Assembly (NCBI RefSeq): GCF_007750395.1
Contig: NZ_CP036281.1
Span: forward strand, 2,069,001 to 2,133,000
Reading direction: 5' to 3'
Length of the DNA stretch: 64,000 nucleotides
DNA from: Polystyrenella longa
Lineage (GTDB): Bacteria; Planctomycetota; Planctomycetia; Planctomycetales; Planctomycetaceae
Below are positions 3,358-8,476 of the stretch, piece by piece (position 1 is the first letter of the stretch; every line of letters starts with the position of its first letter). Both the position numbers and the translations under genes were made by a program. The notes beneath the pieces were generated by a model that was not told where the DNA came from, made no database searches, and saw only the letters and a program-made list of their open reading frames with translations.

Positions 3358-4368
3358 TCATCCGAGTTTGATGACAATTTTTCCAAGATGATCCTGGGAT
3401 GCCAGGTGTTCATAGGCCTGAGGAACTTGATCGAAGGAGAAGGTGCGGTCAATGATGGGTTTCACCTTGTGAGCACTGATCGCTTTATTCATACTTTCAA
3501 ACATGGCGCGGCTACCGACGTAAATACCTCGAACATTGACACTTTTCATCAGGATCGAAATCGGATTGAAGTCCCCTGGTCCACTGAGCACGCCAATCAA
3601 AGCCACATGTCCGCTCATACGAACCGCTTTCATCGATTTGGAAAGCGTACCCGCGCCACCCACTTCGACAACGTGATCTACCCCTTCACCGCCCGACCAT
3701 TGCAGGACCGTTTTATCCCAGTCAGGATCTTTACGGTAATTCACAGTGAAGTCCGCTCCCAGTTTCTGCGCGAAGTTCAATTTGTCGTCGCTGCTGGAAG
3801 TGATCGCGACAGTGGCTCCCGCCAGCTTTGCGAACTGCAAAGCAAAAATGCTGACGCCGCCCGTTCCGAGTAACAGAACTTTGTGGCCCGGCAGGACCGG
3901 TTTGCCGCTCAGGATCGCGTGCCAGGCTGTTACCCCTGCACAAGGCAACGTTGCCGCTTCTTCGAATGAAAGATGCTCCGGAATCGAGACGACTCCTGTT
4001 GCTGGCAAAGTGATGTATTCGGACAGAACTCCATCTACTTCTCCCCCCAGGGCCGTCTTTTGCATAGTGGAATCGCAAGCGCCTCCCTGCCACCCGGGCA
4101 TGAAGCATCCACAGACCCGGTCACCCTTCTGCACGGTATCCACGCCAACGCCCACCTCAACAATCTCGCCGCTGCAGTCGGAAAGAGGGATACGAGGGAC
4201 ATCCATGTTGGGGTTATATTGGCCTCTCAGGATCATCAGGTCTCGAAAGTTCAGCGAGCAAGCCTTCACGCGAACGACAACCTGTCCGGGGCCAGCGGTG
4301 GGTTGGGGCAAATCGACTAATTTTAAACCTGAGATGTCTCCCATAGTTTCTATTTGATACGCACGCAT
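3358..4368 (-). CDS. Zinc-independent MDR alcohol dehydrogenase / quinone oxidoreductase-like protein
   Basis: This 336-residue protein belongs to the medium-chain dehydrogenase/reductase superfamily. Its N-terminal GroES-like domain includes SLNFRDLMILRGQY (about 38-51) and PLSDCSGEIVEVG. The Rossmann domain has the nucleotide-binding GTGGVS at 168-173, followed by FALQFAKLAGA. The catalytic-zinc signatures of true alcohol dehydrogenases (the C-G-T/S-D and G-H-E motifs) are absent: the positions read LNFRD and SDCSGE. It is therefore probably an NAD(P)H-dependent quinone or enone reductase-type enzyme, acting in the cytoplasm; the substrate is unknown. It is the fourth gene in a minus-strand run after the SDR, PCD and DUF6513 genes (148 bp gap), so it could be co-transcribed with them, but no sequence feature proves this. 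The ATG at 4368 gives the standard family N-terminus (MRAYQIE). Confidence 0.9.
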   Translation of the reverse strand: MRAYQIETMGDISGLKLVDLPQPTAGPGQVVVRVKACSLNFRDLMILRGQYNPNMDVPRIPLSDCSGEIVEVGVGVDTVQKGDRVCGCFMPGWQGGACDSTMQKTALGGEVDGVLSEYITLPATGVVSIPEHLSFEEAATLPCAGVTAWHAILSGKPVLPGHKVLLLGTGGVSIFALQFAKLAGATVAITSSSDDKLNFAQKLGADFTVNYRKDPDWDKTVLQWSGGEGVDHVVEVGGAGTLSKSMKAVRMSGHVALIGVLSGPGDFNPISILMKSVNVRGIYVGSRAMFESMNKAISAHKVKPIIDRTFSFDQVPQAYEHLASQDHLGKIVIKLG

Positions 4369-4516: not shown

Positions 4517-5962
4517 CTAAATAGGAGGCGATGGGTTTTGCTTCTGGTGCCGGCGACGTTCATGGGCACTGACTTCGGGTACAGTCAGGAACCCCCAACT
4601 GAGTGCCTGGTCCTGACGATATTCTTTACCAAGCGTCAGCGCCGTTACCGCTTTCGACAGTTCGTAACCGATGTAAAAAGCATGTGACGAATCCATTTCA
4701 CCGCTTGCGGCAGTGATCTGATCGAACAACTCATAAGGATCTGATCCATGCCAGTATCCGTCTCTGTTCAGTAAATGCAGTTCACCCCTCTCCGCAAAGA
4801 TACGAAAATTAGGATCACGAATCTGCGCCTGCATTTGTTCCAGGGTTTCTGCACCACGCTCTTTTAAGCGAGCATCACGCAGCATCACCAGATTGGAGTC
4901 GAGGTGTTTTGGTAATGTTTTACGAGCGAAGCAGTAGTGCATCAACCGGCGGGCATGGTCAAATTCTTTCACCGCCGTTCGGCACCAGTTAATGACTTCG
5001 GTCGTCAGCACACTTTCCACCTGCAGCTCCTGACAGATTCCGGCCAGAAGAAAGTTTACGCCAGCAGAATCGACTTCGGATAGTTCCGTCAGGTTGCCAA
5101 TGCCCATCATCATCGCTTTGTCTGGCCACTTCCGGCGAACTTCATAGTAGCGAGCCAGTGATGCCGTGAATCCAAAACTGATCGGTTCCAGAATGGGATC
5201 AATGCGGTAGGGAGTGCCCTGAGCGTCGAGTTCTTCGACCGTTCGCTCAAGCGAATTAAGATCGTCCGGTCGGTCTGGAATCGCCACCAGCTCAGCTCCA
5301 AGCATTTTCGCCCAGGCAATGTTGGTCTGATTACAACTCAGAACAAGTTCCGCACCCTGCTCCACTGCGTCGCTCACTTCTCGCTGATCGAAACTGTCGA
5401 TCGAAACTCGAAATCCCTCCGCAACTAGCATGCGGGTGACCTCACCCACGCGACTCCAGCTCTCTCCCGGAATGCAACCAACGTCAATCAGGTCGGCACC
5501 TGAGTCTCGATAGCGACCGGCCAGTTGCAGGATTTCCCTGTCCGTCATCCGCGGAGCATGATTAATCTCGGCAATGATATCGATGCTGTACTGGCTGAGG
5601 TCCGGTGGTTCTTTCTGAGAGGCTCCAAAAAAGAGAGGCAGATCGTACATATCTTTGGGCCCCCGCTCGAAAGGAAGATCGTATTCGCCTGCCAGCCCGT
5701 CAAGCGAACCCTGGCACCAGCCTGGCAGTACGACTTTCTGGTATCTCTCGGGAGAAATAGGGTCTCGATGTTCCGATTGGCTCAGCTTTCGGGCGACCCA
5801 GTCAGTATGCATTAATGCGGCGACACTGATGCCCAGAACTTCGATCTCATATTCGAACTGATGTTGCTTGGCCAGTTGTGGTAAAAGATCGCGCAAGGCT
5901 GGTTCGGCCAGACGACCGGTCAGGAACAAGATTCGTGCAGAAGAATCTGTTTCAACCGGCAT
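4517..5962 (-). CDS. DUF6513 dihydropteroate synthase-like protein
   Basis: The protein has 481 residues from the ATG at 5962 (MPVETDSSARILFLTG). The frame runs further up to a TTG at 6040, but the family begins close to the ILFLTGRLAEPALR segment, so the shorter form was chosen; there is no clear ribosome site for either. An N-terminal region of about 165 residues precedes a TIM-barrel half that mirrors dihydropteroate synthase: EINHAPRMTD, then GADLIDVGCIPGESW, then VSIDSFDQREV and GAELVLSCNQTN. In established knowledge, such DHPS-like proteins occur in bacteria with tetrahydromethanopterin-linked C1 metabolism, which planctomycetes possess. The upstream neighbour is a pterin-4a-carbinolamine dehydratase, also pterin-related. 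A role in biosynthesis of a methanopterin-type cofactor is a reasonable inference, not proven. The gap to the upstream PCD gene is 138 bp. Confidence 0.87.
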   Translation of the reverse strand: MPVETDSSARILFLTGRLAEPALRDLLPQLAKQHQFEYEIEVLGISVAALMHTDWVARKLSQSEHRDPISPERYQKVVLPGWCQGSLDGLAGEYDLPFERGPKDMYDLPLFFGASQKEPPDLSQYSIDIIAEINHAPRMTDREILQLAGRYRDSGADLIDVGCIPGESWSRVGEVTRMLVAEGFRVSIDSFDQREVSDAVEQGAELVLSCNQTNIAWAKMLGAELVAIPDRPDDLNSLERTVEELDAQGTPYRIDPILEPISFGFTASLARYYEVRRKWPDKAMMMGIGNLTELSEVDSAGVNFLLAGICQELQVESVLTTEVINWCRTAVKEFDHARRLMHYCFARKTLPKHLDSNLVMLRDARLKERGAETLEQMQAQIRDPNFRIFAERGELHLLNRDGYWHGSDPYELFDQITAASGEMDSSHAFYIGYELSKAVTALTLGKEYRQDQALSWGFLTVPEVSAHERRRHQKQNPSPPI

Positions 5963-6100
5963 CGGGTTTACTCGCAAGTCAGAGTGAGAAGAGCGGACGG
6001 AGGGGATTCTGGCAGAGGTCTGCTTCCCTATTGTAAACAAGGTTAACCCATGTCCGAAACCTGCCAGCTCGATCTTCGCCTTTGAAATAGAAAGCTATAT

Positions 6101-6445
6101 TTATTTAACCCAGTTTTTAGATTTGCCTTCCAGAGCGGAATCTTCTCCCGGTTTCCAACCAATGCTGTGTTCGATCTGTGTGGCCAGTTCGATATCTTTC
6201 ATCGTGATCCCCTTGGCACTGTGAGTTTGCAGCTTCACTTTCGCGCGGGCATAACCCAATTCAAGATCAGGATGATGGTCGGCCGCTTCCGCCATGTAAC
6301 CAATCGTATTTGCGACGAGCAGCGTGTGTGGAAACCCGGGGGTTTTATAAACGCGGGTAATCCAACCCTCCTGCAGTTTCCACTCGGGGATTTTCTTCAG
6401 ATGTTCAGCGATCTGTTCTTCCGTTAAAACTTCTTTATCAGCCAT
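6101..6445 (-). CDS. phhB: Pterin-4a-carbinolamine dehydratase
   Basis: This 114-residue protein matches the PCD/DCoH family along its whole length, which is the usual size. The signature E-A-x-D-H-H-P-D (about residues 52-59) is followed by a conserved Tyr, the QTHSAKGIT segment with its His, and D at the start of a helix ending in IEHSIGW. The enzyme dehydrates 4a-hydroxytetrahydropterin to quinonoid dihydropterin; in bacteria without phenylalanine hydroxylase nearby, as here, the physiological pterin is often unclear. The ATG at 6445 is preferred over the one at 6451 because GGAG lies seven bases upstream of it and only one or two from the other. It sits between an SDR gene (83 bp upstream) and the DHPS-like DUF6513 gene, so it is probably part of a pterin-linked transcription unit. 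I see no phenylalanine hydroxylase gene in the window. Confidence 0.95.
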   Translation of the reverse strand: MADKEVLTEEQIAEHLKKIPEWKLQEGWITRVYKTPGFPHTLLVANTIGYMAEAADHHPDLELGYARAKVKLQTHSAKGITMKDIELATQIEHSIGWKPGEDSALEGKSKNWVK

Positions 6446-6528
6446 TGTCATTCTCCATTATCTTAGATGAGAGTCAAAAACGTTGCTGTAGTCCGAAATT
6501 TGTAACCGGATGTGTTTGGTATTCGAAC

Positions 6529-7326
6529 TTATCGGACCACGCCTCCATTTACATTGATGACTTGCCCCGTAACGAAATTCGCTTCCTCGCTGGAGAGAAA
6601 ACGGATCATGCGGGCAATGTCAGTCGGTTCACCCCACCGCTTGAGCGGGGTTTCGTTCAGGACTCGTTGTTGCCAATAACCGCTCGCTCCGTCACCCCAC
6701 GCTGTTCTAATCCAGCCCGGCGAAACACAATTCACGCGAACTTCAGGTGCCAGGCTCAGAGCGAGAGAGCGAGTAAACCCCATGACACTATTTTTGGCCA
6801 TCGAGAACAGTTCTCCACTATCTCCTTCCATGCCACGGTCGGATTGGTCCCAACCAATTGTGATCAGGCTACCGTTGCCGGCCTCTTTCATTCGCGTTCC
6901 CCAGGCACGTCCCAGTACCGCCGTCGAGGTGACGTCAATTTTGAGAAGTGCGTCGAGCTTTCTGTTGTAATCCCAATCCTTCGCGGCACCGGTAAGCAGA
7001 TCAACCCCTGCATTGAGAACCGCGATCTGAAAGCCCCCCTGCTCCTCCCAAGTCTGTTCCGCAAATGCCACAAGTTCAGCTGTCTCGTAGAGATCCTGAC
7101 TGATGACTGTCGCACTTCGGCCAATTAAGCGGATTTCGTCAGCCACCTTTTCAGCTGCCTCGATCGAACGGCGGCAGTGCACAACGATGTCTGAACCCGC
7201 CCGCGCCAGTTCGAGGGCGATCTCTCTCCCGATTCCAGTAGAGGCTCCGGTTACCAAGCTGGTCTGATTCTCCAGCGAGGCGAAGTTATTTGTCGATGTC
7301 GTTCGTGAAGACAATGCGCAGATCAC
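6529..7326 (-). CDS. SDR-family protein lacking the canonical catalytic Ser and Tyr
   Basis: This short-chain dehydrogenase has about 265 residues. From the GTG at 7326, TGASTGIG is at 26-33, an NADPH-type VVHCRRS at 48-54, LNAG at 104-107, the lysine of the Y-x3-K motif at 178, and SPGWIRT and VTGQVINVNGG near the C-terminus. The residue expected to be the catalytic Tyr is Phe174 (FSMAK), and the Ser position reads Trp159 (ITIGWDQ). The cofactor site looks intact, so it may bind NADPH without classical dehydrogenase chemistry, or use different residues. The VHCRRS segment resembles pteridine reductases, which would fit the neighbouring PCD and DUF6513 genes; this is inference. The start is uncertain: no ATG exists in frame, the frame extends to a TTG at 7428, and another TTG lies at 7314. 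Confidence 0.83.
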   Translation of the reverse strand: MICALSSRTTSTNNFASLENQTSLVTGASTGIGREIALELARAGSDIVVHCRRSIEAAEKVADEIRLIGRSATVISQDLYETAELVAFAEQTWEEQGGFQIAVLNAGVDLLTGAAKDWDYNRKLDALLKIDVTSTAVLGRAWGTRMKEAGNGSLITIGWDQSDRGMEGDSGELFSMAKNSVMGFTRSLALSLAPEVRVNCVSPGWIRTAWGDGASGYWQQRVLNETPLKRWGEPTDIARMIRFLSSEEANFVTGQVINVNGGVVR

Positions 7327-7999: not shown

Positions 8000-8476
8000 T
8001 TGACAGAACCTGATCATAAATACAGTCAACAAGACTTACCTACATCCAATAACTCCAAATCACAGATTGAGTCACCAGAAATGATCTCCGGACTTGCTGA
8101 TCCTGCTGTCTCCCCTTCCCACTCCATGCTGTCCAATGAGTTGGAAAAAGACCTCGTTCAGGTTTTCAAACTCCTGGCAGATGAGACCCGCTTGAAAATT
8201 CTGCTTTACCTCGTCAAAGAACAGGAAATCCACGTTTCTGCTCTTTGCGAGCGTCTGCAGCAGAGCCAACCTGCCGTCAGCCATCATCTGGCCCTGTTGC
8301 GGGTCGCTGGATTGATTGAAGCGCGACGTGAAGGAAAACACAATTTCTATTCCGTTCGAAAAGGGCATTTCCATCGCATTATGAACGAGCTTTTTAGCAG
8401 CATGATGGGACAGGGAGATGATGCCATCCGCTTCAAAGATTTCATCGTCACCCAGGAAAACCGACTGGCTGAATAA
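8000..8476 (+). CDS. ArsR/SmtB-type winged-helix transcriptional regulator
   Basis: The protein has 158 residues. After a low-complexity N-terminal tail of about 45 residues comes a complete ArsR-type winged helix: VFKLLADETRLKILLYL, VSALCERLQQSQPAVSHHLALLRVAGLIEARREGK and NFYSVRKGH. QPAVSHHLALL is the recognition helix. The metal-binding ELCVCDL motif of arsenic and zinc sensors is replaced by IHVSALCERL, so it is probably not a classic metal sensor. The TTG at 8000 is used because AAAGG sits nine bases before it; ATGs at 8081 and 8126 would trim only the disordered tail and remain possible. It stands alone, divergent from the SDR gene and 271 bp before carA, so its targets cannot be told from context. 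Confidence 0.88.
   Translation: MTEPDHKYSQQDLPTSNNSKSQIESPEMISGLADPAVSPSHSMLSNELEKDLVQVFKLLADETRLKILLYLVKEQEIHVSALCERLQQSQPAVSHHLALLRVAGLIEARREGKHNFYSVRKGHFHRIMNELFSSMMGQGDDAIRFKDFIVTQENRLAE

Follow-up and report, generated by a model that had tools for sequence, protein, structure and literature searches.

The genes at the locus

Three adjacent genes on the minus strand of a 64,000-nucleotide stretch of the Polystyrenella longa genome (NZ_CP036281.1, positions 2,069,001 to 2,133,000; hereafter the window, whose own numbering is used below) code for proteins that may serve the biosynthesis and upkeep of the cofactor tetrahydromethanopterin (H4MPT). In order of transcription, these are a short-chain dehydrogenase/reductase (SDR; ~7326 to 6529, the 5′ end being approximate), a pterin-4a-carbinolamine dehydratase (PCD; 6451 to 6101) and a protein of the DUF6513 family that resembles dihydropteroate synthase (DHPS; 5962 to 4517). 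The original prediction had placed the three genes side by side on this strand, and all of them were found there, with Pfam scores far above cut-off. The host genome is a single contig of 6.1 Mb, and the close homologues of the window's genes belong to named planctomycetes. Gaps of ~83 and ~138 nt separate the three genes, whose transcription as one operon, or as a shared transcript, is plausible; promoter-like and terminator-like matches occur in the three-gene region at chance level only.

The DUF6513 gene starts at the ATG at 5962, in agreement with the starts of its relatives, while the listed open reading frame (ORF) extends to a TTG at 6040. Its product matches PF20123 at 73.8 bits against a gathering cut-off of 23.9, has the same domains (DUF6513 and PterinBD-DUF4346) as the TIGR00284/DUF6513 DHPS-like proteins of H4MPT users and, like them, occurs with Fae. 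Unlike them, it misses the curated TIGR00284 cut-off (179.3 against 256.65, E = 1e-52), and judged by its sequence it is a divergent bacterial relative rather than the TIGR00284 equivalog. DUF6513 was also detected in the M. jannaschii control genome.

The PCD matches PF01329 at 90 bits (cut-off 26) and NF002017 at 91.4 (cut-off 80), and its start is probably the ATG at 6445, which offers a better ribosome-binding-site spacing as judged by eye. The dehydratase motif of this family consists of two adjacent His plus a third His or Trp; it is intact from Glu55 in the window protein and present in 7/7 PCDs of alignment A3, the window's included. This alignment was made without the L037 PCD, which is the same as that of L034, and without the 119-residue PCD of L019.

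An SDR of the GWDQ-GMEG subfamily

The SDR matches adh_short_C2 at 143.9 bits (cut-off 27), and its glycine motif, TGASTGIG, fits the TGxxxGxG of classical SDRs. Its Pfam matches comprise SDR-type families and one weak, sub-cut-off F420_oxidored match; no dihydrofolate reductase (DHFR) or flavoprotein domain was found in it by Pfam. The AlphaFold2 model has a mean predicted local distance difference test score (pLDDT) of 94, its best match in the structure comparison is to an SDR (Z = 33.8, root-mean-square deviation 2.1 over 243 residues), and the trypanosomal pteridine reductase PTR1 (TbPTR1) is among its Foldseek matches (E ~1e-20).

A pattern scan of public genomes yielded at least 119 SDR loci, and the 119 listed, together with 13 genomes of the phylum sample described below, provided 132 homologues, among which at least one contig is counted twice (G148:C171 and L108, identical in length and offset). 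The catalytic Tyr is replaced by Phe in 130 of these 132 proteins, the window's included (FxxxK rather than YxxxK), and the catalytic Lys is kept in all 132. The GWDQ and GMEG segments are invariant by selection, being the search pattern; PGW and TxW, which lie outside it, are likewise invariant or nearly so. Alignment A1 holds 7 of the 8 members of the SDR cluster, L041, which has an ordinary YxxxK, having been excluded. The pattern used for finding starts was too narrow and lost 56 of the 132 SDRs, leaving 74 full-length proteins kept and 62 after removal of redundancy; 48 of these 62 make up alignment A2, in which the window copy stands for L059 and whose members match their own profile by construction. 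The titles of the 119 listed loci are nearly all planctomycete, four reading only "bacterium" and one "Bacteroidales" (L090). The latter contig is probably mis-binned; one of its ORFs shares 74% identity with an ORF of L131, a planctomycete locus. No proteobacterial or archaeal title occurs among the 119 loci of the matches listed.

The SDR-type pteridine reductases PTR1 and FolM, whose catalytic set is Asp-Tyr-Lys, provide a precedent for SDRs that reduce dihydropterins or dihydrofolate. PTR1, FolM and TmpR belong to the same superfamily as the window protein, which differs from them by its Phe in place of Tyr, by scores below the pteridine-reductase and TmpR cut-offs, and by a GWDQ-GMEG signature of its own. 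The window SDR departs from the Asp-Tyr-Lys set by its Phe at the Tyr position; the Asp within GWDQ is a possible counterpart of the PTR1 Asp.

Fusions of FolK to the SDR

In 13 of the 119 loci among the matches listed, FolK (HPPK) stands N-terminal to the SDR in a single open frame (L069, L082, L089, L090, L111, L116, L119, L131, L144, L147, L150, L155, and L164). Two of these fusions were checked by Pfam and match PF01288 at 135 and 126 bits, one of them being also recognized by the NCBIfam model TIGR01498 (144 against a cut-off of 54.1). FolK is a dihydropterin kinase, so its fusion to the SDR is independent evidence that the latter belongs to a pterin pathway. A further 11 loci, one of them the phylum-sample locus L056, have long open frames upstream of the SDR without a FolK match; these were rejected as other N-terminal fusions, since by eye ten of them appear non-coding and the eleventh (L142) appears to be SDR sequence. 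In the class search, many genomes of family f78 have SDR open frames of at least 400 residues, and the FolK-SDR fusion may be the rule in that family.

Co-occurrence with H4MPT genes

Genome-wide searches related to H4MPT covered a phylum sample of 149 genomes (Fae, DUF6513, SDR, PCD, AfpA, and DHFR) and a class sample of 148 genomes of the window's class (DUF6513, SDR, and the PCD subtype). Fae was found in 15/149 phylum genomes and DUF6513 in 14/149, distributed over six families. The original prediction had described DUF6513 as DHPS-like and linked to H4MPT users, and the link to a methanopterin-type cofactor withstands the tests that it had set: all 14 DUF6513 genomes lie within the 15 with Fae, and 0/134 Fae-less genomes carry DUF6513. 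The window genome itself has Fae at C1:1679450. The Fae-positive exception, G051, lacks both DUF6513 and the SDR signature; its two divergent Fae matches, still above the Pfam cut-off, stand ~1 kb apart on contig C193 in open frames of 488 and 496 residues.

The SDR follows the same distribution. A DNA pattern for the GWDQxxxGMEG segment, built from the SDRs of seven DUF6513 genomes and allowing one mismatch, matched 13/149 genomes, all among the 14 with DUF6513, and 0/135 others, these 135 having been checked by the DNA pattern only; a reversed control pattern gave 0 matches. Six of the matches are new and lie away from DUF6513 (G024, G048, G069, G105, G130, and G137), and the SDR of the fourteenth DUF6513 genome, G087, was recovered by profile at 371.9 bits, independently of the pattern design. 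In the class sample, DUF6513 was found in 135/148 genomes and the SDR in 138/148; 132 have both, 7 neither, 3 DUF6513 only and 6 the SDR only, an association with a Fisher p of 7e-7 that ignores phylogeny.

For PCD, the picture depends on the level at which the family is viewed. The whole family is common (97/149 phylum genomes) and, although some PCD occurs in all 14 DUF6513-positive genomes, it is also found in 83/135 genomes without DUF6513, so that only the subtype encoded at the locus is informative. A profile of this cluster-type PCD matched 12/14 DUF6513 phylum genomes at 178–217 bits, the best match elsewhere in the 149 genomes reaching 75.9 bits; the profile search of the phylum sample did not find the subtype in G121 and G061, both of them DUF6513-positive. 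The profile was made from 7 of the 12 subtype-positive genomes, so that the members of A3 match it by construction, and the G048 PCD equals that of G069; the independent genomes are thus G024, G087, G130, and G137, at 178–191 bits. In G130, whose L019 PCD had been left out of A3, it is another PCD that matches the subtype. In the class sample, the subtype occurs in 59/148 genomes, namely 57/135 with DUF6513 and 2/13 without; the latter two both carry the SDR, and the subtype never occurs without DUF6513 or SDR. The window PCD is a member of the PCD/PhhB family (COG2154) that passes its cut-offs and keeps its dehydratase motif, and differs from the rest as a separate subtype that goes with planctomycete H4MPT genes and is sometimes linked to DUF6513. 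The earlier suggestion that PCD may work on a methanopterin-type cofactor would fit this subtype, which in the phylum sample is confined to H4MPT-type genomes.

Gene order in relatives

The genes also keep company on the chromosome, in varying arrangements. Longer runs occur in other planctomycete families. In G133 and G148, a run comprises mch, a MptN-like ATP-grasp gene, a CitG-like gene, SDR, PCD, DUF6513 and pabB, although in G148 the contig ends within pabB. The run of G117 is alike but shows no mch in the stretch read, and G064 has the run without PCD but with a 6-pyruvoyl-tetrahydropterin synthase (PTPS) homologue. One member of each run family was identified, and the MptN-like protein does not reach the cut-off of the MptN equivalog. 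Excluded from the run-family profiles were the L019 PCD and, from L044, a PTPS-like ORF of 167 residues that had been joined to the CitG-like cluster. Among the 119 loci listed, DUF447 lies near the SDR in 7, a RFAP-synthase-like gene in 6 and a PabA-like gene in 6, one of each having been identified.

Across the class, 58/132 genomes having both carry the SDR no more than 1.7 kb upstream of DUF6513 and on its strand, and PCD lies upstream of DUF6513 in 18/57. The exact order SDR-PCD-DUF6513 is found in 5/148 class genomes and in 4/14 H4MPT-type phylum genomes. The exact triple is a minority arrangement, and the runs in relatives include mch, MptN-like and pabB genes. Conservation of gene order is thus partial, and the genes co-occur even in genomes that do not share it.

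The PTPS-like proteins encoded within the H4MPT run (L044:5283-5786, recognized by Pfam, and L149:1987-2478, recognized by eye) perhaps carry out a step in pterin precursor synthesis.

A candidate for the missing dihydromethanopterin reductase

The last step of H4MPT synthesis is the reduction of dihydromethanopterin. Two types of enzyme are known for it, namely the DHFR-related DmrA, which is almost only alpha-proteobacterial, and the FMN-dependent flavoproteins AfpA/DmrB/DmrX, according to an article in whose published tree the planctomycete DHFR homologues group with DfrA (PMC6193120). Another article, which deals with how the H4MPT pathway originated, states that Afp is not recognized in planctomycete genomes (Chistoserdova, 2016; PMC5020050). 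In agreement, AfpA/DmrB was found above cut-off in 0/15 Fae-positive phylum genomes. DHFR (PF00186, a model that may miss DmrA itself) was not found in 10 of these 15, the window's included, and occurs in one copy in each of the other 5. Neither a SDR-type dihydromethanopterin reductase nor a FolK-SDR fusion is named in the passages retrieved from the openly licensed literature searched, including PMC6787355 and PMC8305020; older papers on H4MPT gene islands (Kalyuzhnaya, 2005; Marx, 2003) lie outside that scope and could mention PCD or SDR.

From the computed gene identities, co-occurrence, linkage, FolK fusion and Tyr-to-Phe replacement, we infer substrates and reactions as follows. The host, a planctomycete that carries Fae, would make and maintain (dephospho-)tetrahydromethanopterin with the help of the three genes. 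DUF6513 would couple 6-hydroxymethyl-dihydropterin diphosphate with the ribofuranosyl-aminobenzene unit, a pterin-arylamine joining role suggested by its DHPS-like domains and by the RFAP-synthase and pab genes nearby in relatives. With NAD(P)H as the reductant, the SDR would convert the resulting 7,8-dihydro compound into the tetrahydro cofactor, replacing DmrA and DmrB/AfpA, neither of which was recognized in these genomes; the proposed reaction is the one that these enzymes catalyze, from dihydromethanopterin to tetrahydromethanopterin, but the window protein, as an SDR, is unrelated to either type. In DHFR-like reduction, the hydride goes to C6 and the N5 proton comes from solvent, so that the tyrosine of an SDR would be dispensable and Phe compatible with this chemistry. 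Finally, the PCD subtype would dehydrate 4a-hydroxylated H4MPT formed by oxidation, yielding a dihydropterin that the reductase could restore. Since PCD is optional across genomes, repair fits it better than an essential step.

On the simplest reading of the sequence data, the SDR would be the reductase that is missing. To the combined proposal, namely that the SDR adds to the two known types of dihydromethanopterin reductase a third that is homologous to neither, that PCD acts on H4MPT, perhaps in repair, and that the three genes serve H4MPT biosynthesis and upkeep, we assign a probability of roughly 0.55. A broader evolutionary version, in which planctomycetes would possess an independent Tyr-less SDR dihydromethanopterin reductase, fused to FolK in some lineages so that one protein would cover two steps of cofactor synthesis, together with a dedicated PCD recruited to salvage oxidized H4MPT, is more tentative, and we would place it somewhat short of even odds. 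A candidate gene that occurs naturally fused to FolK and shows a strong phyletic pattern would put a name to the planctomycete reductase gap printed in 2016, and the PCD subtype offers a lead on the role of some bacterial carbinolamine dehydratases, i.e., H4MPT upkeep.

Evidence against and alternative explanations

Several observations weigh against the proposal that the SDR is the missing reductase and PCD its partner in upkeep. Among PDB structures, FabG-like and other classical SDRs resemble the SDR most, and it misses the pteridine-reductase model NF006598 (137.9 bits against a cut-off of 288; a relative reaches 147.9). Any step dedicated to H4MPT could show the same phyletic distribution, which for the 135 DUF6513-less phylum genomes rests on the DNA pattern. 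Three class genomes, G156, G223, and G266, have DUF6513 without SDR at E<=1e-70, G156 being a single contig with 99% completeness. Another six contain the SDR with no DUF6513 match, and some of these exceptional genomes are fragmented assemblies. Of the 119 listed loci, 32 were set aside for having under 1.6 kb of sequence beyond the SDR; of the remaining 87, 58 have neither PCD nor DUF6513 adjoining it, and 29 have one or both next to it on the same strand. The PCD subtype is missing from 78/135 DUF6513-positive class genomes, and its class matches split into two score groups, 179–209 and 124–154 bits, so that the subtype may not be one function. As for the known reductases, sub-cut-off AfpA matches of 24–31 bits occur in 5/15 Fae-positive genomes, and a DmrA could escape PF00186.

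The original prediction had likened the SDR to pteridine reductases by its VHCRRS segment. This segment is present in the window protein, but it varies across the 132 homologues, and FabG-type models, which also miss their own cut-offs, score the protein above NF006598; the segment was thus rejected as proof of a pterin substrate. The pterin link of the SDR would rest instead on co-occurrence and the FolK-SDR fusions.

Among other explanations, the best placed is that SDR and PCD form a repair pair, in which PCD would turn 4a-hydroxy-H4MPT into a quinonoid dihydro form that the SDR reduces, another enzyme making the tetrahydro cofactor. Mammals offer a parallel, with PCD and a dihydropteridine reductase that is itself an SDR. 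In 6 class genomes and in G133, G117, and G148, PCD comes directly after the SDR, and both subfamilies track H4MPT genes. Each of the 14 H4MPT-type phylum genomes encodes a PCD of one type or another, so that a different type could take over where the subtype is absent. The biosynthetic reductase would remain missing, however, and the SDR occurs in 138/148 class genomes against 59 for the PCD subtype, which makes its main role independent of that subtype; we therefore regard the repair pair as unlikely.

Marginally less probable still is that the SDR performs another reductive step of H4MPT synthesis, for instance an earlier dihydropterin reduction, or the opening and reduction by which the ribofuranosyl unit becomes the ribitol side chain. 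SDR relatives without the catalytic Tyr, of the isoflavone-reductase type, reduce quinone methides at a benzylic carbon, a chemistry that the ribofuranosyl step could need, and the near-universal Phe, the invariant Trp residues outside the search pattern and a phyletic pattern suited to any dedicated step would all agree with it. On the other hand, the fusion to FolK suggests a role in the pterin part of the molecule, and H4MPT is also made by proteobacteria and archaea, whose names are absent from the titles of the 119 matches listed. With two unrelated types of enzyme already in existence, the reductase step is also the likelier one for a lineage-specific replacement.

That the SDR substitutes for DHFR in planctomycetes without it is very improbable, even though 10 of the 15 Fae-positive genomes, including that of the window, gave no PF00186 match. 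DHFR is equally patchy elsewhere, occurring in 5/14 H4MPT-type and 49/135 DUF6513-less genomes, so the SDR, whose signature was found in 0/135 of the latter, does not track DHFR loss but follows the H4MPT genes, and this role was rejected by distribution across the phylum sample. Least probable of all is a chance neighbourhood, in which a housekeeping PCD and a common FabG-like SDR would stand beside an H4MPT gene by accident. The widely differing gene order and the scarcity of the exact triple would suit this reading, but it is already disfavoured by the co-occurrence of unlinked genes, by the ~100 bits that set the PCD subtype apart in the phylum sample and by the FolK fusions.

In the three class genomes with DUF6513 and no SDR (G156, G223, and G266), the subfamily was not found in the stretches around DUF6513 either. 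In G156 (contig C1, locus L194), DUF6513 and PabB are adjacent without an SDR of the GWDQ-GMEG subfamily, which makes this near-complete genome the most promising source of an alternative reductase.

Neighbouring genes

An alcohol-dehydrogenase-like oxidoreductase of the medium-chain type (MDR; 3358 to 4368, minus strand) adjoins the DUF6513 gene, and the original prediction had considered that it may extend the unit. The gene exists, but it has no homologue in the other loci compared and is not conserved with the cluster; it was therefore rejected as a member. On the other side, an ArsR-type regulator is encoded at 8000 to 8476, divergently upstream of the SDR, and 9 of the 119 listed SDR loci have, upstream and on the other strand, a gene for an ArsR protein that is similar as judged by eye. 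This neighbour is possibly a regulator of the SDR, or its position reflects plain synteny.

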